Assembly (NCBI GenBank): GCA_904502105.1
Contig: CAJGDF010000013.1
Span: 1-14,782 of the forward strand
Length of the DNA: 14,782 nucleotides
Direction of reading: 5' to 3'
From: an uncultured Clostridia bacterium
Lineage (GTDB): Bacteria; Bacillota; Clostridia; Oscillospirales; UBA644
The notes under the pieces were generated by a model, which was not told where the DNA came from, ran no database searches, and saw nothing but the letters and a program-made list of their open reading frames with translations. Below are positions 628-14,766 of the stretch, one piece after another (within the stretch, counting starts at the first letter, position 1; each line of letters opens with the position of its first letter). The position numbers and the translations under genes are program-made.

Positions 628-650
628 AACAGACAGATAGGGTTAAAAAA

Positions 651-1928
651 ATGCTGAAAAGATATTATGAAAACGATCTTTCCGCTTTCTTTTCTCAGCT
701 TGACGAGAAAAGAAATGTAACAGAGGCGGACGTTGCAAAAATAGTTTCCGATATAATAAACGATGTAAAACTCGGCGGAGATGCGTCATTAAGAAAATAC
801 ACAGAAAAATTCGACGGTGTATCCCTTGAAAATTTTGAAGTTTCAAAAGAAAAGCCCATGGAGGCGCTCGAGAGATCCAGAATCAAAGATCCCCTTATCG
901 CAGCCGCAAAAAATATCAGAACATACCATGAGCATCAGCTTGCAGACGGATTTAAAATCGAATCCGAAAACGGCTGCGCTATCGGCAGAAGAGTTTTACC
1001 GTTAAAAAGAGTCGGTGTATATGTTCCCGGCGGCAAGGCGGCTTACCCGTCATCTGTTTTAATGAACGCCATTCCCGCAAAGGTTGCAGGCGTTGATGAA
1101 ATAATAATGGTTACCCCTCCCCCGAAAAACGAGGATGAAAACACAGATATCCTTGCAGCTGCGGCAGTTGCAGGTGTTGACAGAATATTTTATTGCGGCG
1201 GTGCTCAGGCTCTCGCGGCACTCGCATACGGAACAGAAAGTGTGCCGAAGGTTGATAAAATAGTCGGTCCCGGCAATATATTCGTTGCAACAGCAAAGAA
1301 GCTTTTGTTCGGAACGGTTGATATCGACATGATCGCGGGCCCGTCTGAAATATGTGTTATAGCAGACGAAAATGCACCCGACAGATTTGTTGCGGCAGAC
1401 CTTCTCTCTCAGGCAGAACATGATGAGCTTGCATCTTCGATTCTCGTTTGCTTCTCTGAAGAAAAAGCAAAAAGGGTTGAAGAAGAGCTTAAAAAGCAGA
1501 TTGCTATGCTTCCCCGTTCCGAGATCATTTTGAAATCTCTCGAAAACAACGGAGCCGTGCTTATCTGTAAAGATATGGACAGTGCACTTGATGCCGCAAA
1601 CAAGATTGCTTCCGAGCATCTTGAGCTTTGTGTTGAAGATCCGTTCAAATATCTCGACAAAGTAAGAAATGCAGGTTCTGTTTTCCTCGGATACTATTCA
1701 CCCGAACCCTTGGGAGATTATTATGCGGGTCCGAACCACGTTCTGCCCACATCGGGAACAGCGAGATTTTTCTCTCCTCTTTCCGTTGAAAGCTTTACAA
1801 AAACAAGCTCATTTATATATTACACACAGTCTGCACTTTCTGCAGCAGCTCCCGACATCACCGCAATAGCAAAAGCAGAAAGACTTATGGCTCATGCAAA
1901 TGCCATTGAAGTAAGGGACGCTAATTAG
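651..1928 (+). CDS. hisD: Histidinol dehydrogenase
   Basis: It catalyses the last two steps of the pathway, the NAD-dependent four-electron oxidation of L-histidinol to L-histidine. The 425-residue length is normal. Zinc ligands expected from the E. coli enzyme are in place: Q254 and H257 (LLSQAEHD), D356 (LGDYYAGPNH) and H415 (RLMAHANA). The catalytic Glu-His pair is E322/H323 in SEHLEL. Other family blocks are VGVYVPGGKAAYPSSVLMNA (about residues 121-140) and VGPGN (205-209). The ribosome binding site is weak (AGGG about 10 bases before the ATG). A 69-base gap to hisC follows, the largest gap inside the histidine operon. Confidence 0.97.
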   Translation: MLKRYYENDLSAFFSQLDEKRNVTEADVAKIVSDIINDVKLGGDASLRKYTEKFDGVSLENFEVSKEKPMEALERSRIKDPLIAAAKNIRTYHEHQLADGFKIESENGCAIGRRVLPLKRVGVYVPGGKAAYPSSVLMNAIPAKVAGVDEIIMVTPPPKNEDENTDILAAAAVAGVDRIFYCGGAQALAALAYGTESVPKVDKIVGPGNIFVATAKKLLFGTVDIDMIAGPSEICVIADENAPDRFVAADLLSQAEHDELASSILVCFSEEKAKRVEEELKKQIAMLPRSEIILKSLENNGAVLICKDMDSALDAANKIASEHLELCVEDPFKYLDKVRNAGSVFLGYYSPEPLGDYYAGPNHVLPTSGTARFFSPLSVESFTKTSSFIYYTQSALSAAAPDITAIAKAERLMAHANAIEVRDAN

Positions 1929-1977
1929 GTTTTGCGGTTTTGATTTTAAAAAAGCCATAAGCCCGAAAAGAAAGGAA

Positions 1978-1996
1978 GCTTTCGTTAAACGAAAGC
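1978..1996 (+). promoter_or_regulatory. Perfect hairpin between the hisC ribosome binding site and start codon
   Basis: GCTTTCG (1978-1984) and CGAAAGC (1990-1996) form a perfect 7-bp stem with a 5-base loop TTAAA. The purine-rich AAAGGAA (1971-1977) lies directly 5' of it and the hisC ATG (1998) one base 3' of it. The linear distance from Shine-Dalgarno to ATG is about 20 bases, too long for normal initiation; folding the hairpin brings the two sites close together. No U-tract follows, so it is not a terminator. A role in setting or tuning hisC initiation is inference. Confidence 0.5.
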
Positions 1997-1997
1997 A

Positions 1998-3074
1998 ATG
2001 GTTAACAATATGGTTTTCGGAAAAAAACTGAACGGTGCAGAAGAATATATCCCGTTCAAATATGAGCCCGGAATGATACGTCTTGATGCTAACGAAAGTT
2101 ATGCGGATATGCCCGACGAAATGAAAAACAAGGTTCTCGCGGAGATAAATGCGCAGGCGTTCAACAGATATCCGGACCCTGCATCCACCGCACTGTGTAA
2201 GGCTTTTGCGGATTATTACGGCATTTTCACATCAAACGTTGTTGCGGGAAACGGAAGCGACGAGCTGATTTCGATAATATTTTCTGCCCTTTTACCGAAG
2301 CATTCAAAGGTTCTGATCCTTACCCCCGATTTTTCCATGTATAAGATATATGCAAACCTTTACGAACAAAGTGTTTGCACCGTTGAAAAAGATAAAGATC
2401 TGAATATAACCGCGCAGGCTGTTATTGATGCGGCAAAAAAGAACAGTGTTGACTTTATTATTTTCTCAAATCCCTGCAACCCCACCGGTCAGGGAATGCC
2501 GGCAAGTGAGGTCGAAAAAATCGTTTCCTCCGCAAGCTGTGCAGTATGTGTTGATGAAGCATACATGGAATTCTGGGCAGAAAACGAAACGGTTATGCCT
2601 CTTATAAATAAATACGAAAACCTTTTGATATTAAAAACATGCTCAAAAGCATTCGGCATGGCAGGCTTCAGACTCGGTTTTGTTGTGGCAAACGAAAACA
2701 TTATTTCAATGTTCAGAAAAGCAAAAAGCCCATACAATGTAAACTCTCTTTCTCAGGCAGCGGGTCTTGCGGCACTCAAAAACAAAGAATACCTCAAGAA
2801 TATGACTGCCCAGATAATATCAAGAAAAGAAAAGCTTTACAATGCGCTCAAAGAGCTCGAATCCCCCGTTTTCCGTGTTTTTGACACGAAAACGAATTTC
2901 GTGACCGTTCAGACCCCGATGGCAAAAGAGCTTTATTCATATCTTGTTAAAAATAATATTATAGTACGTTATTCTGCCCCTGATTTTCTGCGTATAACAG
3001 CAGGCACGAGAGGCGAAAACGATCAGTTGATAAATAAATTGGAGGCGGCGCTCGGTGAGACAAGAATTCATTAA
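1998..3074 (+). CDS. hisC: Histidinol-phosphate aminotransferase
   Basis: A PLP-dependent class I/II aminotransferase that converts imidazole-acetol phosphate plus glutamate to histidinol phosphate. The 358-residue length is typical. Visible motifs are NPCNPTG (158-164), VDEAYMEF with D186 contacting the PLP ring nitrogen, the Schiff-base lysine K217 in SKAFG, R225 for the PLP phosphate, and R332 (LRITAGT) for the substrate carboxylate. HisC-type enzymes can also transaminate aromatic keto acids, which is relevant because the downstream operon makes phenylpyruvate and 4-hydroxyphenylpyruvate but contains no aromatic aminotransferase; that dual role is inference. The start at 1998 lies beyond a hairpin; a second ATG at 2010 (residue 5) is a plausible alternative. 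The 3' end overlaps hisB by 20 bases. Confidence 0.95.
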   Translation: MVNNMVFGKKLNGAEEYIPFKYEPGMIRLDANESYADMPDEMKNKVLAEINAQAFNRYPDPASTALCKAFADYYGIFTSNVVAGNGSDELISIIFSALLPKHSKVLILTPDFSMYKIYANLYEQSVCTVEKDKDLNITAQAVIDAAKKNSVDFIIFSNPCNPTGQGMPASEVEKIVSSASCAVCVDEAYMEFWAENETVMPLINKYENLLILKTCSKAFGMAGFRLGFVVANENIISMFRKAKSPYNVNSLSQAAGLAALKNKEYLKNMTAQIISRKEKLYNALKELESPVFRVFDTKTNFVTVQTPMAKELYSYLVKNNIIVRYSAPDFLRITAGTRGENDQLINKLEAALGETRIH

Positions 3075-3636
3075 CAGACAAACTGCTGAAACTCGCATAT
3101 CTATCAATCTTTCTCTTGACGGAACAGGTTCCTTTGACGGCTCTTCCGGTATTGGATTTTTCGACCATATGTTAAATTCCTTCGCGGTGCACGGCGGTTT
3201 CGATATTGTTTTGAGCGCAAAGGGCGATTTAAATGTTGACTGTCACCATACCATTGAGGATATTGGCATCGTTTTAGGCAAAGCATTCAACGGTGCACTC
3301 GGTGACAAACGCGGCATTGCACGCTTCGGAAGCTCAGCTATTCCTATGGACGAAGCCCTCGCGCGTGCGGTCGTTGATATTTCAGGAAGACCTTACCTTG
3401 TTTTTGATGCAAAGTTTGAAGAGGAAAGAGTCGGCGAATTTGACACATGTATGACCGAAGAATTCTTCCGAGCATTTGCTTTTAATGCGGGAATGACGCT
3501 TCATATGTCCCTGCTTTACGGAAAGAATTCTCATCACTGCATTGAGGCGCTTTTCAAAGCAGCAGCCCATGCTCTTAAAAATGCCGTAAAGATCGAGGGT
3601 GACACAATTCTCAGCGCAAAGGACGTTCTCGAATGA
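3055..3636 (+). CDS. hisB: Imidazoleglycerol-phosphate dehydratase
   Basis: It dehydrates imidazole-glycerol phosphate to imidazole-acetol phosphate with a manganese centre. At 193 residues it is the monofunctional form, without the N-terminal histidinol-phosphatase domain of the enterobacterial protein. Metal-binding motifs are FFDHML (H38), CHHTIED (H64, H65, E68) and SHHCIE (H160, H161, E164). The start is GTG at 3055, chosen because GGAGG (3041-3045) lies 9 bases upstream and the N-terminus then matches family length. It begins inside hisC, and its stop overlaps the hisH start in an ATGA. Confidence 0.96.
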   Translation: MRQEFINRQTAETRISINLSLDGTGSFDGSSGIGFFDHMLNSFAVHGGFDIVLSAKGDLNVDCHHTIEDIGIVLGKAFNGALGDKRGIARFGSSAIPMDEALARAVVDISGRPYLVFDAKFEEERVGEFDTCMTEEFFRAFAFNAGMTLHMSLLYGKNSHHCIEALFKAAAHALKNAVKIEGDTILSAKDVLE

Positions 3637-4268
3637 AATTAGCAATAATAGATTACGGTGCAGGAAATCTCCGCTCTGTCGTAAAAGCTTTTAACTATAT
3701 AGGTGAGGATTGTGTTGTAACATCAGACCGAGACACGATCCATTCCTGTTCAGGTATAGTTTTACCGGGTGTCGGAGCATTCAGAGAAGCTGTAAACAAG
3801 CTTGAAGCGAAAGGTCTTGTTGATATATTAAAAAAAGAAGCGAATGACGGAAAAGCACTTTTCGGTATATGTCTCGGTATGCAGCTTCTTTTTGAACAAA
3901 GCTATGAATTCGGTCAGACCGACGGACTCGGATTTATAAAAGGCTCTGTTGAAAAAATAGATACAAACGGTCAGGACCTCAAGATACCCCATATCGGTTG
4001 GAATACGCTTAAATTTAATGAAAGATCCAATCTTTTCAACGGTATAGAAGATAATTCATACGTTTATTTTGTTCACTCTTTTGCTGCAAAAACAGACAGT
4101 AAAAATGTTACCGCATACACGGACTACGGTTCTGCTGTAGTTGCGGCGGCAGAGAATAAAAATGTATGCGGAACACAGTTCCACCCGGAAAAGAGCGGCG
4201 AGGTCGGTTTAAAAATATTAAAAAATTTCTGTAATACGGTGCGTCATGATAATTTTACCTGCAATTGA
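3633..4268 (+). CDS. hisH: Imidazole glycerol phosphate synthase, glutaminase subunit
   Basis: A class I glutamine amidotransferase subunit that hydrolyses glutamine and passes ammonia to HisF. The Cys-His-Glu triad is intact: C80 in GICLGMQ, H184 and E186 in QFHPEKSG. The oxyanion strand PGVGAF (45-50) is present, as is the IPHIGWN block (118-124). Length 211 is slightly above the usual 200 or so because the C-terminus extends into the hisA start, giving a 23-base overlap. AAAGGA (3618-3623) is the ribosome binding site, and the ATG overlaps the hisB stop in ATGA. Its partner HisF lies two genes downstream. Confidence 0.96.
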   Translation: MKLAIIDYGAGNLRSVVKAFNYIGEDCVVTSDRDTIHSCSGIVLPGVGAFREAVNKLEAKGLVDILKKEANDGKALFGICLGMQLLFEQSYEFGQTDGLGFIKGSVEKIDTNGQDLKIPHIGWNTLKFNERSNLFNGIEDNSYVYFVHSFAAKTDSKNVTAYTDYGSAVVAAAENKNVCGTQFHPEKSGEVGLKILKNFCNTVRHDNFTCN

Positions 4269-4962
4269 TATAAAAGACGGTCAGTGCGTCCGTCTGCTTC
4301 GCGGAGAGTTCGGAACAGTACATAAGGTTGCCGAAAGCCCTAAAAAATCCGCTGAAAACTTCATATCCGCAAACGCGGAATTTATGCACGTTGTTGACCT
4401 TGACGGTGCACTCGAAAAGAAACCTGTCAACCACGAAACTGTAAAGCAGATCATTGATCTCGGTACCCCTGTAGAAATCGGCGGAGGTATTCGCTCGGAA
4501 AAAGATTTTGAAATGTATGCCGAGCTTGGTGCAAAGAGAATAATTCTCGGCTCTGTTGCACTCACAAATAAAGATCTTGTTAAAAGATGTGCGGAAAAGT
4601 ATCCCGAGCTTACGGCTGTCGGAATAGATGCAAAAGACGGATTTGTTTCAACAGAGGGTTGGCTTGAGCAAGGCACCGTCAGATTTACAGATCTTGCAAA
4701 AGAGATGGAAGCTATCGGTGTAAAGTATGTTATCTTTACAGATATTTCGCGTGACGGCACTCTCGGCGGACCTAATCTCGAACAGCTTTCAGAGCTTAAA
4801 AATGCTGTAAAAATGAACATTATTGCTTCGGGTGGCATGAGAGACATAGGAGATGTTAAGGCATGTAAAGAATTAGGCCTTTACGGAGCTATATGCGGAA
4901 AATCTCTTTATGCGGGAACACTCGATCTCAAGGAGGCAATAGAATGCTCGCAAAAAGAATAA
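4246..4962 (+). CDS. hisA: ProFAR isomerase (HisA)
   Basis: A TIM-barrel isomerase performing the Amadori rearrangement of ProFAR to PRFAR, the substrate of HisH-HisF. The start [12 protein letters not shown] carries the general base D8, and VGIDAKDG carries the general acid D128. Phosphate-binding loops are IGGGIR (78-83) and IASGGM (192-197). T165 in FTDISRDGT matches a conserved active-site threonine. Length 238 is normal. It starts 23 bases inside hisH with only a weak GGTG upstream, so expression probably depends on coupling. The C-terminus overlaps hisF by 19 bases. Although homologous to HisF, the W in EGWLEQG (139) supports HisA. Confidence 0.95.
4931..4936 (+). promoter_or_regulatory. 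Ribosome binding site fixing the hisF start
   Basis: AGGAGG lies 7 bases before the ATG at 4944, inside the hisA coding sequence. The frame is open further upstream (to an ATG at 4893), but the conserved HisF N-terminus begins exactly at 4944, so this site decides the start. Confidence 0.9.
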
Positions 4963-5747
4963 TTCCGTGCCTTGATATAAAAGACGGCAAAGTTGTTAAG
5001 GGAACAAACTTCGTTGGTCTTCGAGATGTTGGTGACCCCGTAGAAATCGCAAGAAGATATAACGAACAGGGCGCCGACGAGATAGTTTTTCTCGACATAA
5101 CCGCATCTCACGAAAACAGAGGCACACTTCTTGACGTCATAGAAAGAACCGCAAGCGAGGTATTTTTACCTGTAACAGTCGGCGGCGGCATCAGAACAAC
5201 GGATGACATACGTGAAATTCTCAGAGTCGGTGCAGACAAAATTTCGGTAAACTCCGCAGCTGTTAAAGACAAAAGCCTTATTTCGAAAGCAGCGGATATG
5301 TTCGGCTCGCAGTGCGTAGTTGTTGCGATAGACGTTAAACGAATTCCGTCAAAAGAAAATTATAACGGTGTTTTCCCGACAGATTTCGGAACATCGCCGG
5401 AAGATTTTCATGTTGTTATCCATGGCGGACGAACAGACACCGGAATAAACGCGATCGAATGGGCAAAAGAAGTTGAGAAGCTCGGTGCGGGAGAAATACT
5501 GCTGACATCGATGGACACAGACGGCGTTAAAAAAGGATTCGACCTCGAAATAACAAAGATCATTTCGGACGCTGTATCCATTCCCGTTATTGCATCGGGC
5601 GGCTGCGGCTCTCTCAACGACTTTTACGATGTTTTTGCTCAGACAGATGCATCGGCGGCACTTGCGGCATCGCTTTTCCATTTTGGAGAATTATCCGTGC
5701 CGCAGGTTAAAAACTATCTTAAAGAAAAGGGTATACCTGCAAGATGA
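4944..5747 (+). CDS. hisF: Imidazole glycerol phosphate synthase, cyclase subunit
   Basis: The cyclase half of the HisH-HisF complex converts PRFAR plus ammonia to imidazole-glycerol phosphate and AICAR. The start [20 protein letters not shown] gives catalytic D11; the second catalytic residue is D130 in VVVAIDVKR. Phosphate loops GGGIR (80-84) and ASGGCGS (217-223) are present. At 267 residues it is about 14 longer than the usual 253 or so. The extra residues sit just after D130, between VKR and the conserved HGGR (160-163), where most HisF proteins have a short turn. The reading frame is unbroken, so the insertion is real coding sequence. The stop overlaps the hisI start in ATGA. Confidence 0.95.
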
Positions 5748-6070
5748 ACTGGGAAGACAAAATTTTCGACGGCAGAGAACTCGTTCCTGCAATAATAACA
5801 GACTGCAAAAACGGCGAAGTTCTTATGCTTGCATACATGAACAGAGAATCTTTTCTCAAAACACTTGAAACGGGCAAGACATGGTTCTTCTCCCGCTCCC
5901 GCCAGTCACTTTGGAACAAAGGCGAGACAAGCGGTCATTTTCAATATGTAAAATCAATCAAATGCGATTGCGATAACGATACTATTCTTATTTCTGTTGA
6001 ACAGATAGGACCTGCATGCCACACAGGCTCACGCAGCTGCTTCTTCAACACGATTCTGGAGGAAAAATGA
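5744..6070 (+). CDS. hisI: Phosphoribosyl-AMP cyclohydrolase
   Basis: A zinc enzyme that opens the purine ring of phosphoribosyl-AMP. The 108-residue protein is the stand-alone cyclohydrolase, not a HisIE fusion. Motifs are [19 protein letters not shown] (47-65), the acidic metal site CDCDND (74-79), and the zinc cysteines C92 (PACHTG) and C99 (SRSCFF), with C76 as a likely third ligand. It overlaps hisF by 4 bases and hisE by 4 bases. The ribosome binding site is poor, with GGG about 12 bases upstream, so it probably relies on coupling to hisF. Confidence 0.96.
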
Positions 6071-6417
6071 AAGATACATTCAGCGAACTTTACGAAGTTG
6101 TAATGTCAAGAAAAGAAGAAAAACAGGAAGGTTCCTATACCTGCTACCTTTTCGAAAAGGGACTTGACAAAATATTAAAAAAAGTCGGTGAGGAATGCTC
6201 CGAAACAATTATTGCGGCAAAGAACGCGGATATGTTCAAGGACGATGCCGACAAAAAGAACGATCTCGTCGGTGAGATAAGCGACCTTTATTACCACATT
6301 GCAGTTATGATGGCACAGGTTGGCGTAACCCCCGAAGATGTTAATGCAGAGCTCGAAAAGAGATCTCTCAAAACCGGAAATCTCAAGAAATTCCATACAA
6401 CGGATAAAAATACCTGA
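6067..6417 (+). CDS. hisE: Phosphoribosyl-ATP pyrophosphohydrolase
   Basis: A MazG-like all-alpha pyrophosphohydrolase that removes pyrophosphate from phosphoribosyl-ATP, the second step of the pathway. Length 116 is slightly above the usual 90-110. Family signatures are [15 protein letters not shown] (metal-binding EExxE) and [11 protein letters not shown] (ExxD). The start at 6067 is chosen because GGAGG (6058-6062) lies 4 bases upstream and ATGA overlaps the hisI stop; the longer open frame from 6016 has no matching N-terminus. It is the last gene of the histidine operon. Its 3' end takes part in an inverted repeat with the downstream promoter. Confidence 0.94.
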
Positions 6418-6453
6418 TTGTGTCAAAATTATAAAATCAAGATTTCAGGTATT
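6409..6453. repeat. 9-bp perfect inverted repeat joining the hisE end to the aromatic promoter
   Basis: AATACCTGA (6409-6417) is the exact reverse complement of TCAGGTATT (6445-6453), with a 27-base AT-rich loop. The left arm includes the hisE stop codon and the right arm overlaps the first two bases of the -35 box. No T-tract follows, so it is a poor terminator. It may be chance in AT-rich DNA or a protein site; function unknown. Confidence 0.4.
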
Positions 6454-6480
6454 GACAACACAAAAATTTTGTGCTATATT
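6452..6480 (+). promoter_or_regulatory. Sigma-A type promoter of the aromatic operon
   Basis: A consensus -35 TTGACA (6452-6457) and a -10 TATATT (6475-6480) are separated by exactly 17 bases. Transcription would start near 6486-6488, leaving a short 5' untranslated region before the leader peptide's AAGGAG (6497-6502). The position fits a promoter driving the leader and the eight aromatic genes. Prediction from consensus only. Confidence 0.85.
6459..6473. promoter_or_regulatory. Candidate operator: 15-bp palindrome in the promoter spacer
   Basis: CACAAAA-A-TTTTGTG has perfect 7-base arms around one central base (6466), and it sits in the middle of the -35/-10 spacer. A bound dimeric repressor here would block RNA polymerase. 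AT-rich palindromes can arise by chance, so the operator role is inference and no regulator can be named. Confidence 0.4.
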
Positions 6481-6510
6481 TGATGCATAATTATTCAAGG
6501 AGAAAGTGTA

Positions 6511-6621
6511 ATGAACAGAGCACTCAAAGCAGCTGAATATTTTTACTTTGGTTTTGCATTTTATTTTAGCAAAGCTTTTTTGTGTTTGGCTGAAAAAGGT
6601 GTTACGGGTTCTGAGCGCTAA
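6511..6621 (+). CDS. Phe/Tyr-rich leader peptide (attenuator peptide)
   Basis: A 36-codon ORF with a good ribosome binding site (AAGGAG, 6497-6502, 8 bases before ATG) directly downstream of the promoter. Residues 10-23 read YFYFGFAFYFSKAF: six Phe (all TTT) and three Tyr within 14 codons, with no Trp anywhere. It ends at TAA 6619-6621, about 30 bases before a terminator. This is the classic composition and position of a leader peptide whose translation measures charged tRNA-Phe and tRNA-Tyr: stalling in the aromatic run would expose the antiterminator. The peptide itself probably has no function. Its codons overlap the first RNA hairpin (6565-6594), as expected for ribosome-mediated attenuation. 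Not similar in sequence to any specific leader I can name. Confidence 0.88.
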   Translation: MNRALKAAEYFYFGFAFYFSKAFLCLAEKGVTGSER

Positions 6622-6666
6622 GCTCCGTATTCAATTCGTATATTATCTGCCTCACAGCTGAACACG
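6565..6666 (+). promoter_or_regulatory. Attenuator: alternative 1:2 and 2:3 RNA pairings
   Basis: Two mutually exclusive structures can be read. The 1:2 hairpin pairs TTTAGCAAA (6565-6573) with TTTGGCTGAA (6585-6594), leaving one bulged G; its 5' arm contains Phe codon 19. The antiterminator (2:3) pairs TGTGTTTGGCTG (6581-6592) with CAGCTGAACACG (6655-6666), 12 continuous pairs including three G-U wobbles. Segment 2 is shared, and segment 3 covers the last four bases of the terminator's left arm, its whole loop and one base of its right arm. A ribosome stalled at codons 11-19 would mask segment 1, free segment 2, and block the terminator. A smaller hairpin, TACGGG (6603-6608) with CTCCGTA (6624-6629 paired), lies between with the leader stop codon in its loop. 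Confidence 0.82.
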
Positions 6667-6690
6667 CTGTGAGGTTTTATTTATTTTAGG
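6650..6690 (+). terminator. Intrinsic terminator of the aromatic leader
   Basis: CCTCACAGC (6650-6658) and GCTGTGAGG (6666-6674) form a perfect 9-bp stem with a 7-base loop, followed by TTTTATTTATTTT. It ends just before the AGGAGG (6688-6693) of the DAHP synthase gene. A terminator between a promoter and its first structural gene is expected only in an attenuator, and segment 6655-6666 can instead join the antiterminator. Confidence 0.9.
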
Positions 6691-6700
6691 AGGAAAAACA

Positions 6701-7705
6701 ATGATCGTACTTCTCAAACGAAATCCCGATAAGGTTCAGCTCGACAGCCTCATTTCATGGCTCGAATCAAAGGGAGTTGAAATCCACCCCACTGTAGGTG
6801 CGACACAAACCATCCTCGGTCTTGTAGGCGACACATCTCATCTCGACATAGATCTCATTTCTGCGCTCGACATAGTTGAATCGGTAAGAAGAGTGCAGGA
6901 GCCGTATAAAAATGCAAACAGAAAATTCCATCCGCAGGATACTGTTATCAAAGTTGGAAACACCCAGATCGGCGGCGGCAATCTTACACTTATCGCAGGT
7001 CCCTGCTCTGTTGAATCAGAAGAACAGATCTGCGAGATAGCAATGAAGGTTAAAGAAAGCGGAGCCACACTTCTTCGCGGCGGTGCATTCAAGCCCAGAA
7101 CATCTCCCTACTCTTTCCAGGGACTTCGAAACGAAGGTCTCCGTCTTCTCTCTATTGCAAAGAAGCTGACGGGACTTCCGATCGTAACAGAAATTATGGA
7201 TATTTCACAGCTTCCGAACTTCGATGATGTTGATATCATTCAGGTTGGCGCAAGAAATATGCAGAACTTCGAACTGTTAAAGGCACTCGGAACTGTACGT
7301 AAGCCCATACTTTTAAAGAGAGGTCTTTCTTCAACATACGAAGAGCTTCTTATGAGTGCTGAATATATCATGGCAGGCGGAAACAATGAAGTTATTTTAT
7401 GTGAACGCGGCATAAGAACTTTTGAAACATACACGAGAAATACACTCGACGTTGCGGCTATCCCTGTTTTAAAGCAACTTTCACACCTTCCTATTATTAT
7501 TGACCCGAGCCACTCGGCAGGTAAATCAGCACTCGTATCTCCCCTCTCCTGCGCAGCGGTTGCTGCAGGTGCGGACGGCCTTATAATTGAGGTACACAAT
7601 GATCCCACCCACGCTCTTTGCGACGGCCCTCAGTCAATTCGCCCCGAAGCATTTGATACTCTTGTAAAAAAACTCAATGTAATCTCTGAAACAATAAAAG
7701 CGTAA
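6701..7705 (+). CDS. aroF: DAHP synthase, type I-beta, with N-terminal ferredoxin-like regulatory domain
   Basis: It condenses phosphoenolpyruvate and erythrose-4-phosphate to DAHP, the committed step of aromatic synthesis. At 334 residues it matches the Thermotoga-type enzyme: residues 1 to about 70 form a ferredoxin-like domain, known in that family to bind Tyr/Phe for feedback inhibition, followed by a TIM barrel. Metal ligands are C102 (AGPCSVES), H271 (DPSHSAG), E297 (EVHNDP) and D308. PEP/E4P-binding motifs are RGGAFKPRTSPYSFQG (126-141) and LKRG (205-208). There is no fused chorismate mutase. AGGAGG (6688-6693) lies 7 bases before the ATG. The gene is first after the attenuator. The symbol aroF is by function; aroG or aroA(G) are used in some genomes. 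Confidence 0.95.
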   Translation: MIVLLKRNPDKVQLDSLISWLESKGVEIHPTVGATQTILGLVGDTSHLDIDLISALDIVESVRRVQEPYKNANRKFHPQDTVIKVGNTQIGGGNLTLIAGPCSVESEEQICEIAMKVKESGATLLRGGAFKPRTSPYSFQGLRNEGLRLLSIAKKLTGLPIVTEIMDISQLPNFDDVDIIQVGARNMQNFELLKALGTVRKPILLKRGLSSTYEELLMSAEYIMAGGNNEVILCERGIRTFETYTRNTLDVAAIPVLKQLSHLPIIIDPSHSAGKSALVSPLSCAAVAAGADGLIIEVHNDPTHALCDGPQSIRPEAFDTLVKKLNVISETIKA

Positions 7706-7729: not shown

Positions 7730-8563
7730 ATGATTATCGGTATTGTTGGCCTTGGACTTATAGGCGGTTCAATGGCAAAAAGCATAAAGGCAAGAACTGA
7801 TGATATGGTTCTCGGCACAGACCTTAATGAAGAAACAATGAGCCTTGCAAAAATGTCAGGCTCGATAGACGGTGTTCTTACAGACGATAAATTATCGTCA
7901 TGCGATATAGTAATGATCGCTGTTTCCCCCGTTGCCCTTATTAAATGGGTAGAAGAAAAAGCGTCTCTTCTTAAGGGTACAATTCTTATCGACCTTTGCG
8001 GTGTTAAAAGGCATCTCGGCAAAAAAATAGCGGAAAAAGCTGCGGAAAACGGTTTTTCATATATAGGATGCCACCCGATGGCAGGTAAGGAAGTAAGCGG
8101 ATTTAAAAATTCCAATGCAAATCTTTTCAACGGTGCTTCGATGATAGTTATTACGGATGAACATTCCGACATAATGACTCTCGACATGCTTAAAACATAT
8201 TTTCTCAAAATCGGCTTTGAAAAGATAACATTTTCAACACCTGATGAACACGATATGATTATCGCTTATACCTCACAGCTTGCCCATATAACATCAAGTG
8301 CATATATCAAATCTCCCACAGCTCAAAAGCATATGGGCTTTTCCGCAGGAAGCTATAAAGATATGACACGAGTTGCAAAGCTTGACGAAAATCTCTGGAC
8401 AGAGCTTTTTCTTGACAATTCCGACTATCTTGTGGACGAACTCAAAACCTTGATCGGAAATCTTTCCGATTACTTGACCGCACTCGAAAACAAAGATGAA
8501 AACGTGCTTCGTGAGCTTCTCAGAAAAGGTAAAGAATTAAAGCTTACCGCAGGTGGCGAATAA
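7730..8563 (+). CDS. tyrA: Prephenate dehydrogenase
   Basis: It oxidatively decarboxylates prephenate to 4-hydroxyphenylpyruvate, the tyrosine branch. The N-terminal Rossmann fold shows GLGLIGGS (7-14), with D31 at the end of strand 2, which favours NAD over NADP. GCHPMAGKEVSGF contains H115, equivalent to the catalytic histidine of the family, and SQLAH carries H186. Length 277 means a catalytic unit only: no ACT domain and no fused chorismate mutase. Prephenate must therefore come from the mutase domain of PheA further down the operon. AGGA (7719-7722) is 7 bases before the ATG. The stop and the aroB start share one base (TAATG). Arogenate specificity cannot be excluded by eye. Confidence 0.94.
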   Translation: MIIGIVGLGLIGGSMAKSIKARTDDMVLGTDLNEETMSLAKMSGSIDGVLTDDKLSSCDIVMIAVSPVALIKWVEEKASLLKGTILIDLCGVKRHLGKKIAEKAAENGFSYIGCHPMAGKEVSGFKNSNANLFNGASMIVITDEHSDIMTLDMLKTYFLKIGFEKITFSTPDEHDMIIAYTSQLAHITSSAYIKSPTAQKHMGFSAGSYKDMTRVAKLDENLWTELFLDNSDYLVDELKTLIGNLSDYLTALENKDENVLRELLRKGKELKLTAGGE

Positions 8564-9630
8564 TGACAGGGAAAACAGTTCGCGTAAATGTCGGCAAAGG
8601 CTACGATGTTATAATCGAAAACGGCATATTAAACGCATGCGGAAAAATACTCAGAGAAGTGATCGGAAACGGACGTGCGGCAATAATTACGGATTCAAAC
8701 GTATCAAAATTATATCTGCAAACTGTTTTCAACACTCTCAAAAACGAGAATATCGACTGTGAAAGCTTTATTTTTGAAGCGGGCGAACAGTCGAAAAATA
8801 TCTCAACATTATCAGAGATCCTCGAATTTCTCGCAGAAAAACAGTTTGTACGCTCAGATACCGTTATTGCGCTGGGCGGTGGTGTTACCGGTGACATGGC
8901 AGGGTTTGCGGCGGCCGTGTATCTTCGCGGAATAAAATTCATACAGATCCCAACGACCCTTCTTGCGGCAGTTGATTCATCTGTCGGAGGGAAAACAGCC
9001 ATTGACCTTTGCGCAGGCAAAAATCTCGCAGGTGCATTCAAGCAGCCCGAAGCCGTAATCTGCGACCCTGAAGTATTTTCAACGCTTCCCCCAAAAGAGT
9101 TTGCGAACGGAATGGCCGAAACAATAAAATACGGTGTTCTTTTCAGCGAAGATCTTTTTGATTCTTTTAACAATAACACAACACCCGATCAGCTTTGCGA
9201 AATGATAGAAAAATGTGTTTCGTTTAAAGCAAGAACAGTTGAACACGATGAATTTGACAACGGCGAAAGAAAGCTTTTAAATCTTGGTCACACAATAGGA
9301 CACGCAATCGAAAAATGCAGTAATTTCACGGTAAGTCACGGCTATGCGGTTGCGGCCGGCATGGCTATGATAGCAAGAGCAAGTGAAGCACTCAAAACAG
9401 CAAAAGAAGGAACGGCAAAAAGAATTGAAGCGGTGTTAAAAAAGTATTCTTTGCCAACAGATTTTGATTTTACATCAGATGAACTGACATCTGCCGCGCT
9501 TTCCGACAAAAAACGCAGCGGCAATAAAATTACACTCGTTTTACCAACCGGGATTGGCGAATGTATACTCAAAGATGAACCTATCGAAAAACTCGAAGAA
9601 TATATAAAACTCGGCAAGGAAAATAATTAA
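8563..9630 (+). CDS. aroB: 3-dehydroquinate synthase
   Basis: A zinc- and NAD-dependent enzyme cyclising DAHP to 3-dehydroquinate, the second shikimate step. Length 355 is normal. The NAD-binding glycine motif GGGVTGD (105-111) and the block PTTLLAAVDSSVGGKTAID (130-148) are typical. Zinc ligands E186 (NGMAETIKYG), H243 (NLGHTIGH) and H259 (SHGYAVAAGM) are all present. AGGTGG (8551-8556) lies 6 bases before the ATG, within tyrA. aroA follows directly after the stop codon. Confidence 0.97.
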   Translation: MTGKTVRVNVGKGYDVIIENGILNACGKILREVIGNGRAAIITDSNVSKLYLQTVFNTLKNENIDCESFIFEAGEQSKNISTLSEILEFLAEKQFVRSDTVIALGGGVTGDMAGFAAAVYLRGIKFIQIPTTLLAAVDSSVGGKTAIDLCAGKNLAGAFKQPEAVICDPEVFSTLPPKEFANGMAETIKYGVLFSEDLFDSFNNNTTPDQLCEMIEKCVSFKARTVEHDEFDNGERKLLNLGHTIGHAIEKCSNFTVSHGYAVAAGMAMIARASEALKTAKEGTAKRIEAVLKKYSLPTDFDFTSDELTSAALSDKKRSGNKITLVLPTGIGECILKDEPIEKLEEYIKLGKENN

Positions 9631-10890
9631 ATGGATATAGTAATCACACCGTCACCTCTGAACGGAAAAACAGAAGCCATCGGCTCGAAATCGGACATAC
9701 ACCGACTTCTTATCTGCGCAGCGATTGCCACCGAAAAAACTGAAATTGAAGGCATATTTTTTTCAAACGATGTTTTCGCAACATTGTCCTGCATAAATGC
9801 GCTCGGTGCAAAAACAGTAATAAACGGCAGCTGCTGCACCGTTTATCCGATAGAATCGGTTCCCGAATGCCCTGTTATAGATTGCGGAGAAAGCGGCTCA
9901 ACTTTAAGATTTTTATTGCCGGTCACCTGTGCGATATCGAAAAAAGCAGAGTTTCTCGGCAGAGGACGTCTTCCCAAAAGGCCGATCGGCGAGCTTATCG
10001 ATGCGATACGCTCGAGCGGTGTTGAATTCAACGAAGAAAAAATACCGTTAAAAACAAACGGAAAGCTTTGTGCAGGCAAATATTTCATACCGGGCAATAT
10101 CAGTTCTCAATATATTTCGGGGCTTTTAATGGCTCTTTGCGCGGTTGATGGCGAAAGTGAGATCATTTTAACATCAAAAACAGAATCTGCAGGCTATATA
10201 AACATGACGCTCTCCACTCTTTCTCTTTTCGGTGCGGACATAAAAGCAGAAAACGGACATTACACCGTAAAAGGCAAAGGGAAACTTATTTCGCCGAAAA
10301 AAATACGTGTTGACGGAGACTGGTCAAACGCGGCATTTTTCCTTGCCGCAGGAGCAATAGGCAATGAAATCGAGATAGACGGACTGAATATTAATAGTTG
10401 CCAGGGAGACAAAGAAATAACTGAAATTCTTCGCCGATTCGGTGCTGATGTTAAAACAGAAAACGGCAATGTAAAAGTATCAAAAAGAAAGCTTCACGGA
10501 TGCGAAATCGACCTTTCGGATATCCCCGATATGCTCCCTGCACTTGCGATAGTTGCATCTTTTGCAGAGGGTGACACAAAATTTACAGGGGCAGCAAGAT
10601 TACGCTTAAAAGAAAGCGACAGGCTCGCGACAGTACACAAAATGATATCAGACCTTGGCGGCAAAGCAACAGAATCTGAAGACGGAATAACGATACACGG
10701 AACGGGAGACGGACTTACAGGCGGCACTGTAGACGGAGCAAACGATCACAGAATAGTTATGGCAGCAGCGATTGCCGCAGCATACTGTAAAGAAAAAGTA
10801 ACCATAAAAGGTTGGCAGGCAGTAAATAAATCTTACCCGTCATTTTTTGACGATATGAAAAAACTCGGAGGGAAAGCGGATGTCATCTGA
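9631..10890 (+). CDS. aroA: 5-enolpyruvylshikimate-3-phosphate synthase
   Basis: It transfers the enolpyruvyl group of PEP to shikimate-3-phosphate. Length 419 fits the two-domain inside-out alpha/beta barrel. Active-site residues aligned by eye with the E. coli enzyme are K20, S21 and R25 (GSKSDIHR), the PEP loop CGESGSTLRF (85-94), SSQ (158-160), D300 (DIPDMLPA), E328 and R331 (RLKESDRL), R374 (NDHRIVMA) and K400 (NKSYPSFF). The PEP loop differs from the E. coli-type GNAGTAMR, as is common in Bacillota. AAGGA (9616-9620) is 10 bases upstream. The ATG abuts the aroB stop, and the 3' end overlaps aroC by 11 bases. Confidence 0.96.
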   Translation: MDIVITPSPLNGKTEAIGSKSDIHRLLICAAIATEKTEIEGIFFSNDVFATLSCINALGAKTVINGSCCTVYPIESVPECPVIDCGESGSTLRFLLPVTCAISKKAEFLGRGRLPKRPIGELIDAIRSSGVEFNEEKIPLKTNGKLCAGKYFIPGNISSQYISGLLMALCAVDGESEIILTSKTESAGYINMTLSTLSLFGADIKAENGHYTVKGKGKLISPKKIRVDGDWSNAAFFLAAGAIGNEIEIDGLNINSCQGDKEITEILRRFGADVKTENGNVKVSKRKLHGCEIDLSDIPDMLPALAIVASFAEGDTKFTGAARLRLKESDRLATVHKMISDLGGKATESEDGITIHGTGDGLTGGTVDGANDHRIVMAAAIAAAYCKEKVTIKGWQAVNKSYPSFFDDMKKLGGKADVI

Positions 10891-11971
10891 ATACGGAAAA
10901 GCATTGAAAATATCAGTTTTCGGACAGTCACACGGAAAGGCTGTCGGTGTTAACATTGACGGACTGCCGTCAGGAGAAGAGATTGATATTGAAAAACTCT
11001 ATTCTTTCATGGCAAGAAGAGCACCCGGGAAAAGCGAATTTGCAACCAAAAGATCCGAATCAGATATTCCTGTTTTTCTTTCGGGAATTGAAAACGGAAA
11101 AACATGCGGCTTTCCGATATGTGCAATAATCGAAAACAAAGATACACGTTCAACCGACTATGCAGGTCTTTCAAGAACCCCTCGTCCCTCTCATGCCGAC
11201 TACACCGCATTGCTAAGATACGGAGAAAACGTTGATCTTCGCGGCGGCGGACATTTTTCGGGAAGATTAACAGCCCCGCTCTGTATCGCAGGAGATATCG
11301 CAAAACAGATACTTGAAAAGAGAGGCATTTACATCGGTGCGCATCTTGCATCAGTCGGCAAAGAAAAAGATGAAAAATTTCCGTTATACCCATCAAAAGA
11401 GCTTTTTGAAGAAACAGCAAAAAAAGAACTGCCCTCGATAAATGATGAATGCGGTAAAAAAATGGCTGATGTTATACGTTTGGCCGCAGAAAATGCTGAT
11501 TCTGTGGGTGCAACAATAGAATGTGCGATAACAGGTTTTCCCGCAGGGATAGGTTCTCCGATGTTTGACGGAATAGAAAACCGCATAGCTCAGGCAATTT
11601 TCGGAATTCCCGCAGTCAAAGGCATAGAATTCGGTGCAGGCTTTGATTCTTCGGAGATGACAGGTTCTGAAAACAACGATCCGTTCACTGTAAAAGACGG
11701 AAAAATCGTTACGGAAACAAACAACTGCGGCGGTATTTTGGGCGGGATATCAAACGGTATGCCGATAGTTTTCACTGCCGCATTCAAGCCCACCCCGTCT
11801 ATAGGAAAAGAACAGCGCACCGTTGATGTTAAAACAATGGAAAACACAACTGTTGCCGTAAAAGGCAGACACGACCCATGTGTTGCCGTAAGAGCCGTAC
11901 CTGTTGTTGAAGCAGTTGCGGCAACAGTAATTCTCGATATGCTCCTGGAGGAAAAAAATGGATCTTTCTGA
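10880..11971 (+). CDS. aroC: Chorismate synthase
   Basis: It makes chorismate from EPSP by trans-1,4 elimination using reduced FMN. Length 363 is typical. Conserved blocks are FGQSHGKAVGV (catalytic H18), RRAPGKSEFATKR (46-58), TPRPSHADY (catalytic H105), the glycine-rich DLRGGGHFSGRLTAP, and GRHDPCVAVRAVP near the C-terminus. The motifs GQSHG, RPSHADY and HFSGRLTAP replace the enterobacterial GESHG, RPGHADY and RSSARET; I believe this variant is common in Clostridia, so it counts as lineage evidence. No flavin reductase domain is fused, so reduced FMN must come from elsewhere. GGAGGG (10867-10872) lies 7 bases before the ATG. The last 14 bases overlap pheA. Confidence 0.95.
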   Translation: MSSEYGKALKISVFGQSHGKAVGVNIDGLPSGEEIDIEKLYSFMARRAPGKSEFATKRSESDIPVFLSGIENGKTCGFPICAIIENKDTRSTDYAGLSRTPRPSHADYTALLRYGENVDLRGGGHFSGRLTAPLCIAGDIAKQILEKRGIYIGAHLASVGKEKDEKFPLYPSKELFEETAKKELPSINDECGKKMADVIRLAAENADSVGATIECAITGFPAGIGSPMFDGIENRIAQAIFGIPAVKGIEFGAGFDSSEMTGSENNDPFTVKDGKIVTETNNCGGILGGISNGMPIVFTAAFKPTPSIGKEQRTVDVKTMENTTVAVKGRHDPCVAVRAVPVVEAVAATVILDMLLEEKNGSF

Positions 11972-13097
11972 AATAAGAAAAAAAATAGATGATATAGACA
12001 GCAAGCTTCTGCCTCTTTTTCTTGAACGAATGAACCTCTCCGCAGAAGTTGCGGCATACAAAAAGGCAAACTCGTTGCCCGTGTTAAACAAAGGCAGAGA
12101 ACGCGAGATCCTCGAAAGGGTAATGAAAGAAAGCGGTGATATGGAGCAGTTTTCCCACCGCCTTTATACAACTATTTTCGAGCTCAGCCGAGCATATCAG
12201 GAAACACTGAACGCCCAAAATTCAGATCTTTGTAAAAACATAGAAGAAGCATTGAATAATACCCCTGATATATTCCCAAACAACACAACGGTAGCATGTC
12301 AGGGCGTTGAGGGTGCATACTCACAGATGGCGGCAGATAAGATCTTTCCGAGAGGAAATCTGATGTTTTTCAAAACATTTGAGGCAGTCTTTGATGCTGT
12401 TGAAAACGGACTTTGCCGTTTTGGCGTTGTTCCTATAGAAAACAGTTCAAACGGTTCCGTGAGAGCGACATACGACCTTCTGCGAACAAAAAACGTAAAG
12501 ATCGTTAAAAGCGAACGTCTTTGCATCCGCCATGAGCTTTTGGCTAAACCCGGAACAAAGCTTGAAGATATAAAAGAAATACGTTCACATGAGCAGGCGC
12601 TCGGGCAGTGCAGTGAATTTTTAAAGTCGTTAGGCTCTGATGTTAAAATAACCGCTGTTGCAAACACGGCAATGGCTGCAAAATCTGTTGCCGAAAATAA
12701 CGACAATTCAGTAGCCGCAATAGCATCGCATTCGGGATGCGAGCTTTACGGGCTCGTTCCGATAAAACAAAACATTCAGAACAGCGATAATAACTACACA
12801 CGCTTTATCTGTATCTCTAAAAACACCGAGATATATCCGGGTGCGAACAGAATAAGCCTTGTTTTGGAGTGTGAGCACCGCCCCGGAACACTTTACCACA
12901 TACTTGCAAAAATGGCGGCTCTCGAAATTGACATACTTAAGCTTGAAAGCTGTCCGATAGTCGGTCATGATTTTGAGTTTATGTTCTTTTTTGAGATCAG
13001 CGCTTCGGTTAAAGATCCTAAAACAGTAGCTATGCTCGAAAGTCTTGAACGAGACTGCAGAAAAATGATCTTCCTTGGCAACTATTCAGAAGGTTAA
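11958..13097 (+). CDS. pheA: Bifunctional chorismate mutase / prephenate dehydratase with ACT domain (P-protein)
   Basis: It converts chorismate to prephenate, then to phenylpyruvate. Three domains are visible. Residues 1 to about 85 are an AroQ-type mutase with R7, R24, K35, R47, E48 and Q81 matching the E. coli active site; the position of E. coli D48 is N44. Residues about 110-285 are the dehydratase, with CQGVEGAYS, PIENSSNGSV, SHEQALGQC and the essential NYTRF (T281). Residues about 297-375 are an ACT domain with RPGTLYHIL. The usual ESRP effector motif reads ESCP (330-333), an odd substitution. This is the only mutase in the window, so it also feeds TyrA. GGAGG (11947-11951) is 6 bases before the ATG. 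Confidence 0.95.
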   Translation: MDLSEIRKKIDDIDSKLLPLFLERMNLSAEVAAYKKANSLPVLNKGREREILERVMKESGDMEQFSHRLYTTIFELSRAYQETLNAQNSDLCKNIEEALNNTPDIFPNNTTVACQGVEGAYSQMAADKIFPRGNLMFFKTFEAVFDAVENGLCRFGVVPIENSSNGSVRATYDLLRTKNVKIVKSERLCIRHELLAKPGTKLEDIKEIRSHEQALGQCSEFLKSLGSDVKITAVANTAMAAKSVAENNDNSVAAIASHSGCELYGLVPIKQNIQNSDNNYTRFICISKNTEIYPGANRISLVLECEHRPGTLYHILAKMAALEIDILKLESCPIVGHDFEFMFFFEISASVKDPKTVAMLESLERDCRKMIFLGNYSEG

Positions 13098-13109
13098 TCA
13101 GGTATATAT

Positions 13110-14351
13110 ATGACAGAAAAAATATTTGGTCTTTTGGGACGAAAGCTCGGTCACAGCTATTCCGTCCCCATCCATAATAAGCTCGGCAACGGTAAATACA
13201 AGCTTTACGAGCTTGAACCGGAGCAGCTCGGAGAATTTATCCGAAGAGAAGATATCGGCGGCTTGAACGTGACGATACCGTACAAAGTGGATGCAATGAA
13301 ATTTTGCGATACGATCTCTCCCGAAGCAATGCAGATAGGCTCTGTCAACACAATAGTTCGCAGAAACGGTAAAATCTTCGGATACAACACGGATAAATTC
13401 GGATTTTGCCATATGTTAGAAAAAGGCGGGATCGATGTTAAAGACAAAAAAGTTCTTGTTTTAGGCAGTGGAGGAGCGAGCAAAACAGCGTGCTTCTGCG
13501 TTAAAGAACTCGGAGCAAAAAGCCTTTTTATCATCTCTCGAAGCGGCGAAGACAATTACGAAAACATCGAAAAACATTTTGATGCCGACATTATCATCAA
13601 CACCACCCCCGTCGGTATGTTTCCGAACAACGGACAGTCTGCGATCGATCTGAAAAATTTCAAAAACTGCGTGGGCGTTGCAGATATGATCTACAATCCT
13701 TTGCGTACACGTCTTTTATTGGATGCCGAAGAGCTTGGTATAAAAAATATCGGTGGGCTTTCGATGCTTGTAGCGCAGGCAAAAATGGCGGCAGAATACT
13801 TTTTCGACAAAGAGATCAGCAACGATATAACAGATAAAATAACCGCAGAAATGGCAAAAGAGAGCGAAAATATAGTTCTTATAGGTATGCCCGGAAGCGG
13901 AAAAACGACTGTCGGTAAAGAGCTTGCAAGATTAACCGGAAGAGAAATTCTTGAAACAGACGAAATGATCGTAAAAGCCGCAGGAAAAAGTATCCCTCAA
14001 ATTTTTGCTGATGACGGAGAAAGCGTTTTCCGTTCAATCGAAAGCGAAATACTTGAACAGGCGGGCAAGCAATCGGGCAAGATAATCGTTACAGGCGGCG
14101 GTGCTGTTACTGTTGAAAAAAACTATGCATATTTAAAGCAAAACGGCAGGATCTACGAAATAATGCGTGATCTGACGCTTCTTGCAACAGACGGAAGACC
14201 GCTCTCAAAAGGAAAAGATCTTTCGGAGATGTACAAAAAAAGACGTCCGATGTACGACGCTTTCAGAGATACGTTTGTTGAAAATTCCGATACGGCAAAA
14301 AATACCGCAGAAAAGATTTGGAGTGATTTTTGTGAAAATTCTCGTGATTAA
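13110..14351 (+). CDS. aroE-aroK: Fused shikimate dehydrogenase - shikimate kinase
   Basis: One 413-codon frame encodes two successive enzymes. Residues 1 to about 245 are AroE, which reduces 3-dehydroshikimate to shikimate: LGHSYS (13-18) binds substrate, NVTIPYK gives catalytic K59, GYNTD gives D95, and GSGGASKT (119-126) binds the cofactor; NTTPVGM (164-170) follows. Residues about 254-413 are AroK, which phosphorylates shikimate with ATP: Walker A GMPGSGKT (259-266), D284 in ETDEM, R308 in VFRSIESE, TGGGAV (328-333), the lid DGRPLSKG with R363, and RRPMYDAF. The linker ITAEMAKESEN is short and there is no stop or frameshift. The ribosome binding site is weak (AGG 7 bases before the ATG). 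The 3' end overlaps aroQ by 20 bases. Confidence 0.95.
   Translation: MTEKIFGLLGRKLGHSYSVPIHNKLGNGKYKLYELEPEQLGEFIRREDIGGLNVTIPYKVDAMKFCDTISPEAMQIGSVNTIVRRNGKIFGYNTDKFGFCHMLEKGGIDVKDKKVLVLGSGGASKTACFCVKELGAKSLFIISRSGEDNYENIEKHFDADIIINTTPVGMFPNNGQSAIDLKNFKNCVGVADMIYNPLRTRLLLDAEELGIKNIGGLSMLVAQAKMAAEYFFDKEISNDITDKITAEMAKESENIVLIGMPGSGKTTVGKELARLTGREILETDEMIVKAAGKSIPQIFADDGESVFRSIESEILEQAGKQSGKIIVTGGGAVTVEKNYAYLKQNGRIYEIMRDLTLLATDGRPLSKGKDLSEMYKKRRPMYDAFRDTFVENSDTAKNTAEKIWSDFCENSRD
14320..14323 (+). promoter_or_regulatory. Ribosome binding site fixing the GTG start of aroQ
   Basis: GGAG lies 8 bases before the GTG at 14332, inside the kinase part of the aroE-aroK gene. The open frame extends upstream to an ATG at 14182, but the conserved type II dehydroquinase N-terminus begins at this GTG. 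Confidence 0.8.
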
Positions 14352-14766
14352 CGGCCCGAATATCAACATGCTCGGAATACGCGAACCCGAAATATACGGT
14401 TCAAAAACATATGCCGACCTTGTTGAAATGATAACCAAAGAAGCTGAACGTTTAAATGTTGAAATAAAATTCTTTCAGTCTAACCACGAGGGCGCAATCG
14501 TTGACGAGATACAAAACTCTTACGGAGTTTTCGACGGCATCGTCATCAACCCTGCGGCGTACACTCATACGAGCGTTGCACTTCTGGATGCGGTCAAAGC
14601 GGTCGGCATTCCAACGGTCGAAGTCCACATCTCCGACCCCGACACGCGAGATGAATTCAGAAAGATATCGTATATCAGGCAGGCTTGCGTGGCGACCGTC
14701 AAAGGAAAAGGCTTTGACGGATATATTGAGGCGATGAAGCTTTTGACTAAAAACAATAAAATTTAA
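14332..14766 (+). CDS. aroQ: 3-dehydroquinate dehydratase, type II
   Basis: It dehydrates 3-dehydroquinate to 3-dehydroshikimate, the step between AroB and AroE. The 144-residue protein starts at GTG (read as Met) with KILVINGPNINMLG, the family signature. Catalytic Y22 lies in EPEIYG, and FQSNHEGAIVDEIQ (48-61) contributes the general-base region. NPAAYTHTS (73-81) and EVHIS (H99) bind substrate; the usual NPGAYTHTS has Ala in place of Gly. It is the dodecameric type II enzyme, unrelated to type I AroD. It completes the shikimate set of the operon. Only 16 bases remain after its stop, so whether the operon ends here cannot be seen. Confidence 0.96.
   Translation: MKILVINGPNINMLGIREPEIYGSKTYADLVEMITKEAERLNVEIKFFQSNHEGAIVDEIQNSYGVFDGIVINPAAYTHTSVALLDAVKAVGIPTVEVHISDPDTRDEFRKISYIRQACVATVKGKGFDGYIEAMKLLTKNNKI

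Follow-up and report, generated by a model that had tools for sequence, protein, structure and literature searches.

The aromatic operon and its leader

The window, that is, the whole stretch of 14,782 nucleotides that was analysed, holds an eight-gene operon in the order aroF-tyrA-aroB-aroA-aroC-pheA-aroE/aroK-aroQ (NCBIfam). Judging from the ORF spacing, the eight ORFs are probably carried on a single transcript. For aroF, aroB, aroA, aroC, and aroQ, NCBIfam matches lay above the curated cut-offs; for tyrA, pheA, and aroE-aroK they lay below, and these names therefore rest on best match and operon context. A his operon lies directly upstream (window 136-6417), in which hisG, cut at the window start, is followed by ORFs consistent with hisD, C, B, H, A, F, I, and E; hisG and hisE gave NCBIfam matches, and the others were named from sequence and order. 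The end of the his operon is followed by a promoter, a leader ORF, and a terminator, with the aroF Shine-Dalgarno (SD) sequence close by. The features are as follows.

6452..6480, + strand: promoter, TTGACA, 17 nt, TATATT, with TG ahead of the -10; sigma-70-type, 11/12 matches
6497..6502, + strand: leader SD sequence AAGGAG, 8 nt ahead of the ATG
6511..6621, + strand: leader peptide ORF of 36 codons; codons 10-23 include six Phe and three Tyr
6530..6540, + strand: segment P, protector 5' arm, pairing with 6582-6592 (minimum-energy fold, duplex, own-versus-permuted test)
6550..6576, + strand: inner hairpin A:B spanning Phe/Tyr codons (6550-6557 paired with 6569-6576)
6581..6592, + strand: segment C, antiterminator 5' arm, common to the protector
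6649..6687, + strand: intrinsic terminator and U-tract, stem 6649-6675
6655..6666, + strand: segment D, antiterminator 3' arm, doubling as terminator 5' arm and loop
6688..6693, + strand: aroF SD sequence AGGAGG
6701..7705, + strand: aroF, DAHP synthase, first controlled gene (NF006421, TIGR01361)
7730..8563, + strand: tyrA, prephenate dehydrogenase (top model under its curated cut-off)
8563..9630, + strand: aroB (TIGR01357)
9631..10890, + strand: aroA (TIGR01356)
10880..11971, + strand: aroC (NF003793)
11958..13097, + strand: pheA, chorismate mutase-prephenate dehydratase (top models for both activities slightly under cut-offs)
13110..14351, + strand: aroE-aroK fusion, one ORF (two adjoining domains; listed models under cut-offs)
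14332..14766, + strand: aroQ, type II dehydroquinate dehydratase (TIGR01088; queried as 14329-14763)

The promoter had the top score among the 32 listed in the window; in the nearest relative (L081, aroF 96% identical), TTGACA is retained and the -10 region is altered. An inverted repeat, AATACCTGA / TCAGGTATT (window 6409-6417 and 6445-6453), overlaps the -35 box of this promoter with its second arm and is possibly an operator or a remnant of a his terminator.

The leader ORF (6511-6621) is MNRALKAAEYFYFGFAFYFSKAFLCLAEKGVTGSER, with its stop codon at 6619-6621. The six Phe and three Tyr codons within 14 positions that a preliminary description had reported were recovered at codons 10-23. Among the elements that mark an attenuator, a short SD-bearing ORF, presumably translated, lies ahead of the first gene, its codon run calls for the operon's own product in a mix that tracks tyrA and pheA, and an intrinsic terminator stands between leader and first gene. 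The same description had placed an attenuator ahead of the full aromatic gene set from DAHP synthase on, and the putative leader and the terminator do precede aroF of the eight-gene operon. Its guess of a clostridial genome also fits, the best relatives being Clostridia MAG L001 (86% aroF identity) and G045 (96%).

The terminator and U-tract proposed earlier were confirmed, while the stem has 10 pairs (6649-6675, dG -17.6, then UUUUAUUUAUUUU) rather than 9. The 12-pair antiterminator (6581-6592/6655-6666) also held; it includes three G-U pairs and is exclusive with the terminator, whose 3' arm lies downstream of D. In the minimum-energy fold of the full leader, P:C closes around the A:B hairpin, with an outer arm of the protector (6519-6524 with 6598-6603), and the terminator is kept. 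The fragment 6581-6668, without P and most of the terminator 3' arm, folds as C:D. When the whole terminator is present (6581-6690), the minimum-energy fold is the terminator, not C:D, and the antiterminator must therefore win by forming first. As partners of the same segment C, P and D are alike; P is GCAGCYGAAUACCG and D is GCAGCCGAACCG or similar in several close relatives. This likeness may explain a seemingly conserved early leader peptide (AAEY).

Occurrence of the leader and of T-boxes

In an AroF scan of genome contigs, the best 80 of 590 confirmed loci were taken (loci are labelled L, genomes G), and these are therefore close relatives by design. By fixed rules, with thresholds chosen after the aroF leader scores were known, leader plus terminator was found in 62/79 aroF upstream regions (the window and 61/78 other loci; L022 and L034, with 122 and 166 nt upstream, were left out of the count). 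The same rules were passed by 6/769 control regions, taken upstream of other long ORFs at these loci, and by 2/395 shuffles. Two of the six control positives (L049 and L067) repeat aroF leader scores, two (L080 and L052) are themselves aroF leaders, and L060 (Angelakisella massiliensis) and L068 are unrelated. The minus strand of L052 (aroF start near 4422) carries a second aroF-tyrA-aroB-aroA cluster, which is divergent and has a Tyr/Phe leader of its own, MKNKEMAFAYYFYFNYAS. By eye, leaders were also seen in L015, L032, and L077, which fall below the thresholds and outside the 62. A leader was absent by both rule and eye in 14/78 loci, for example in the Oscillospiraceae MAG L003 with 76% aroF identity; five of the 14 (L048, L055, L059, L061, and L066) bear Spirochaetes labels and are the sole five so labelled. 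Leader units were present in MAGs labelled, as recorded, Lentisphaerae (L024), Victivallales (L030), and Thermoguttaceae (L046), which may reflect transfer or binning error.

At the level of the order, an even set of 147 genomes from the order of G004 (Oscillibacter valericigenes, locus L004) yielded AroF matches in 96. Among the 128 match places, 110 were examined; the other 18 were the lowest-ranking matches and one partial gene at the start of a contig. The leader unit was found in 70/110 upstream regions, including all 30 best matches; L120, with a leader by eye, fails the thresholds and is outside the 70. At the level of the phylum, 178/199 genomes had a match, and 14 of the 40 upstream regions atop the similarity ranking, which is not a random sample, passed the leader rule, some with Trp in the run. 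The L279 match looks like chance, and L245 and L258 are leader-like and fail the rule. In more distant aroF leaders (L251-L255, L257, and L271), Phe codons stand together with Tyr and Trp codons, and some of these leaders contain an FSAGF-like stretch.

An SD sequence stood ahead of the in-frame start in 118/132 leaders, compared with 10/264 tests of the other two frames. A chance ORF was rejected as the source of the leader on the contrast of 62/79 with 6/769 and 2/395 and on the retention of SD and frame. Leader length was 20-38 aa (10th-90th percentile), and the peptides vary widely except for Phe and Tyr. Such diversity speaks against a peptide that is itself active, in trans or as a membrane peptide, next to a constitutive terminator. 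Trans activity has been reported for the trp leader peptide in Sinorhizobium (PMC7298713), but the own-partner fit of C:D and P:C described below would be unexpected for a constitutive terminator, and this explanation is extremely improbable.

T-boxes (RF00230) were found in 12/12 related genomes tested, with 5 to 21 matches each; these organisms therefore own the other system, yet the aro leader is of another type. In the order sample, a T-box lay on the gene's strand before 10/40 leader-less aroF regions, and 30/110 regions had neither a rule-passing leader nor a T-box match. The T-boxes ahead of aroF relatives of this order were seen at L161, L171, L173, L175-L180, and L182, and thus one gene family is under two different tRNA-charging sensors. 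No T-box was found before the leader-less loci of the first set (0/13, L076 left out) or in the phylum sample (0/40 regions, with or without leader). An Rfam search of the window with E up to 1 gave no match to any family, T-box included, and the leaders of 12 relatives gave none at gathering scores. On these scans, a T-box or other Rfam element was rejected as the leader. Elsewhere, SpF59, an sRNA family of streptococci, was matched by Rfam at 11282-11333 of the Clostridia MAG L001.

Another reading is an attenuator of the RNA- or protein-binding kind (riboswitch, T-box, or TRAP-like), whose ORF would be incidental and whose U-rich run would be a mere loop. It would suit the U-rich Phe codons and the T-boxes of the related genomes and leader-less aroF copies. 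It is nevertheless very unlikely in view of the Rfam scans, the retained SD and frame, and the behavior of the Tyr and Phe codons, which differ solely at the middle base and yet occur in a share that tracks operon content.

Pairing and codon content across relatives

A few loci occur twice among the 132 leader calls, and 128 distinct leaders were kept for a register-free test in which each C was set against its own D and every other D. Own C:D pairs reached -17.29 kcal/mol, compared with -11.85 for permuted pairs (sd 0.25, lowest of 20,000 -12.94), -12.15 with C shuffled, and -11.90 with reversed D. For P:C, the values were -17.95 for own and -12.83 for permuted partners (sd 0.27) and -13.85 with P shuffled. 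The own advantage was thus 5.4 kcal/mol for C:D (about 22 sd of the permutation mean) and 5.1 kcal/mol for P:C (about 19 sd), although the leaders share ancestry and therefore represent far fewer independent cases than 128. The own P:C partner beat the mean swap in 117/128 leaders. With shuffling within leaders, the gap was nearly unchanged for C and smaller (4.1) for P.

The protector named in the preliminary description, a 1:2 hairpin (B:C, 6565-6594), did not stand up. Its local fold (-9.3) is possible, but P:C fits better: own B:C pairs gave -10.04 versus -9.21 permuted (sd 0.22), an advantage of 0.8 kcal/mol or about 4 sd, with 72/128 leaders in favor, in a comparison where the P window is longer than the B window. 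Column covariation for this hairpin was absent on 13 or 17 aligned sequences. With this and the weak own-partner signal, the hairpin, taken as 6564-6595, was rejected as the main protector.

For the column tests, L004, L011, L017, L036, and L037 were left out of the 13-row alignment (loops or arms out of register) and L081 was added; because five rows had been dropped, all 17 rows of the first alignment were counted too (A:B excepted). In the 13 sequences, 93% of antiterminator cells were paired, compared with 19-55% when slid, and the covariation score exceeded all 500 shuffles; three pairs changed on both sides, which 18/500 shuffles also reached. In all 17, 85% were paired versus 21-52% slid, with five pairs changed on both sides. 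The terminator columns showed strong covariation, with both-side changes in seven of ten pairs, and the A:B hairpin had two such pairs (13-row alignment). P:C showed no column covariation beyond shuffles in the 17 close sequences, and its support comes from the register-free test. In L081, the antiterminator pair 6582-6665 has changed from G-C to U-A; in L037, P, C, and D are all unlike the usual sequences and the pairing is still intact. An antiterminator exclusive with the terminator is accordingly supported by relatives, and a protector exclusive with the antiterminator by the P:C fold and the own-partner test. The preliminary description had named loss of the Phe/Tyr run or of the antiterminator pairing in relatives as a refutation; on the contrary, both are kept, with paired changes.

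Individual leaders depart from this pattern. P:C was about equal to or weaker than swapped partners in L019, L021, L071, and L072, and fell short of -8 kcal/mol in 3/62 leaders (L054, L067, and L069). For C:D, swapped partners did as well as or better than the own ones in L041, L056, L072, and L074. Taken singly, only 61% of the 62 leaders reached 10/200 shuffles or fewer for C:D (window, 5/200).

The 132 leader cores contain 602 Phe, 446 Tyr, and 13 Trp codons under a search rule that weighted Trp the same as Phe and Tyr. Operon content was compared for 112/132 leaders, those with downstream sequence prepared; since gene-chain calls break some operons, tyrA starting within 2.6 kb was counted too. 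The mean Tyr share was 0.49 with tyrA (80 loci) versus 0.30 without (32), and with tree correction (FastTree of AroF) the slope was 0.17 over 111 independent contrasts (p = 7e-4; 15 parsimony changes). By gene-chain class, it rose from 0.28 for pheA without tyrA (23) through 0.46 for both (45) to 0.59 for tyrA only (22), the remaining 22/112 having neither gene or running into the sequence end.

Split operons were found in five genomes (G021, G066, G096, G127, and G150), where a Tyr-rich leader precedes aroF-tyrA without pheA. The other copy in G066, G096, and G150 has a Phe-rich leader (one Trp) before aroF-aroB-aroA-aroC-pheA-aroQ-aroE; the leaders of these three are near-identical and probably reflect one event. 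The Phe-rich counterpart in G127 carries six Phe and two Tyr codons and precedes aroF-aroB-aroA-aroC-pheA, and in G021 the other aroF copy has no leader. Within the window's close group, L084 (aroF 89% identical) has an operon without tyrA and a leader core of eight Phe and one Tyr. Exceptions were the Tyr-rich leaders of L114 (of G129) and L079 despite operons with tyrA and pheA, the pheA-only loci L046, L108, L156, L167, and L170 with a Tyr share of 0.5 or more, and L138, with tyrA and a Tyr share of 0.20.

Proposed mechanism and known systems

The DNA itself shows the leader ORF, its alternative pairings, the fit of C:D and P:C to their own partners in relatives, and a codon mix tracking operon content. 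On this basis, the leader very probably controls transcription by ribosome-mediated attenuation and reports the charging of Phe-tRNA and Tyr-tRNA. We infer from these features translation of the leader, ribosome stalling, and a response to Phe and Tyr, as well as every step past transcription. When both tRNAs are charged, the ribosome would reach the stop codon at 6619-6621. Behind it, P:C would close and keep C from D, the terminator would form, and RNA polymerase would stop before aroF. If either tRNA is short, the ribosome would halt on a Phe or Tyr codon within the protector, covering P or B; the free C could then pair with D ahead of synthesis of the terminator 3' arm, and the operon would be transcribed. 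Without translation the protector should form too, and the default should therefore be off.

Any stall in the run could free C, so that the leader might sense slowed translation generally (e.g., by antibiotics, as vmlR or erm leaders do) and not Phe/Tyr supply; the antibiotic-sensing vmlR leader of Bacillus is reported to have similar anti-antiterminator/antiterminator/terminator logic (PMC9226507). This seems quite unlikely, since the controlled genes are those of Phe/Tyr biosynthesis, the codon mix tracks tyrA and pheA content, and no common arrest motif was seen by eye among the listed leader peptides.

Only 1 nt separates the end of the window's last Phe codon (6577-6579) from the part of C that pairs, and a ribosome stalled there would therefore cover C, which counts against the mechanism. 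Over 62 leaders, C starts a median of 15 nt (quartiles 11 and 19) past the last Phe/Tyr codon of the scored run, a gap of about one ribosome front, which counts in its favor. The polymerase of Bacillus subtilis is reported to outpace the ribosome (PMC9226507), and a stall-timed switch is hard to reconcile with this unless the polymerase pauses, as shown for a B. subtilis leader (PMC6851288). For a possible pause hairpin between C and D, the signal was weak: z averaged -0.61 across 125 leaders and fell below -1 in 34% of them.

We lean toward the view that aromatic leader attenuators form a large, as yet unnamed family in Clostridia, with the mix of codons acting as an input code that can evolve. 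The full operon would have a joint Phe/Tyr sensor, a Tyr sensor (aroF-tyrA) and a Phe sensor (aroF...pheA) would result after its division, and Trp would be added in some distant relatives (L253-L255 and L271). The spread of the family would imply close ribosome-polymerase timing, unlike the runaway transcription reported for B. subtilis, and the clostridial aromatic leader thus bears on transcription-translation coupling in Clostridia. If this is true, aromatic genes would be widely controlled by leader-peptide attenuation in bacteria for which T-boxes, TRAP, and repressors are the mechanisms usually discussed. Where one genome has a Phe-rich and a Tyr-rich leader at sister operons, the pair offers a ready test of how codon identity and number affect the response.

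The attenuation mechanism itself is already known, and the clostridial aromatic leader family is apparently without an earlier account, no description having been found in the literature searched, mostly without subscription papers. Earlier hints could lie in work by Panina and others from 2003, which reportedly deals with the control of aromatic genes in low-GC Gram-positives. TRAP-controlled leaders carry about 11 (G/U)AG repeats. The T-box leader (RF00230) likewise senses tRNA charging, is present in the same genomes, and stands before some aroF relatives of the order, but it binds tRNA directly without translation, and the window has no T-box match. The pheA (pheL) and trp attenuators of enterobacteria have an aromatic-codon leader ORF, protector, antiterminator, and terminator in the same element order as the window leader. 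In contrast to these, the window mixes Phe and Tyr codons, its first gene is aroF, its operon holds tyrA and the common pathway, its relatives are Clostridia, and it has no Rfam match.

Ribosome-mediated attenuation in Gram-positives is reported for other amino acids and genes. According to a 2010 statement, the his leaders ahead of hisZ/hisS* in bacilli were, ermC aside, the first leader-peptide system known to its authors to be shown beyond Proteobacteria and Actinobacteria (PMC2965389). Later cases include the his operon leaders of the Bacillus cereus group, Eubacteriales, and Erysipelotrichales (6 + 5 + 6 species; PMC9413887) and ilv leader attenuation in Staphylococcus aureus (PMC5794164). 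The nearest known case appears to be uORFC-13-1 before aroF in Acholeplasma, an upstream ORF with a U-run coding for Phe, a promoter, an RBS, and an adjoining terminator, for which attenuation was proposed (PMC8632094). It has 24 representatives from Acholeplasma and environmental sequences, with at least one Phe and a further base-paired part. The accessible part of that report describes no Tyr sensing and no link to operon content, and it is by this description only that the window leader is set apart from uORFC-13-1.
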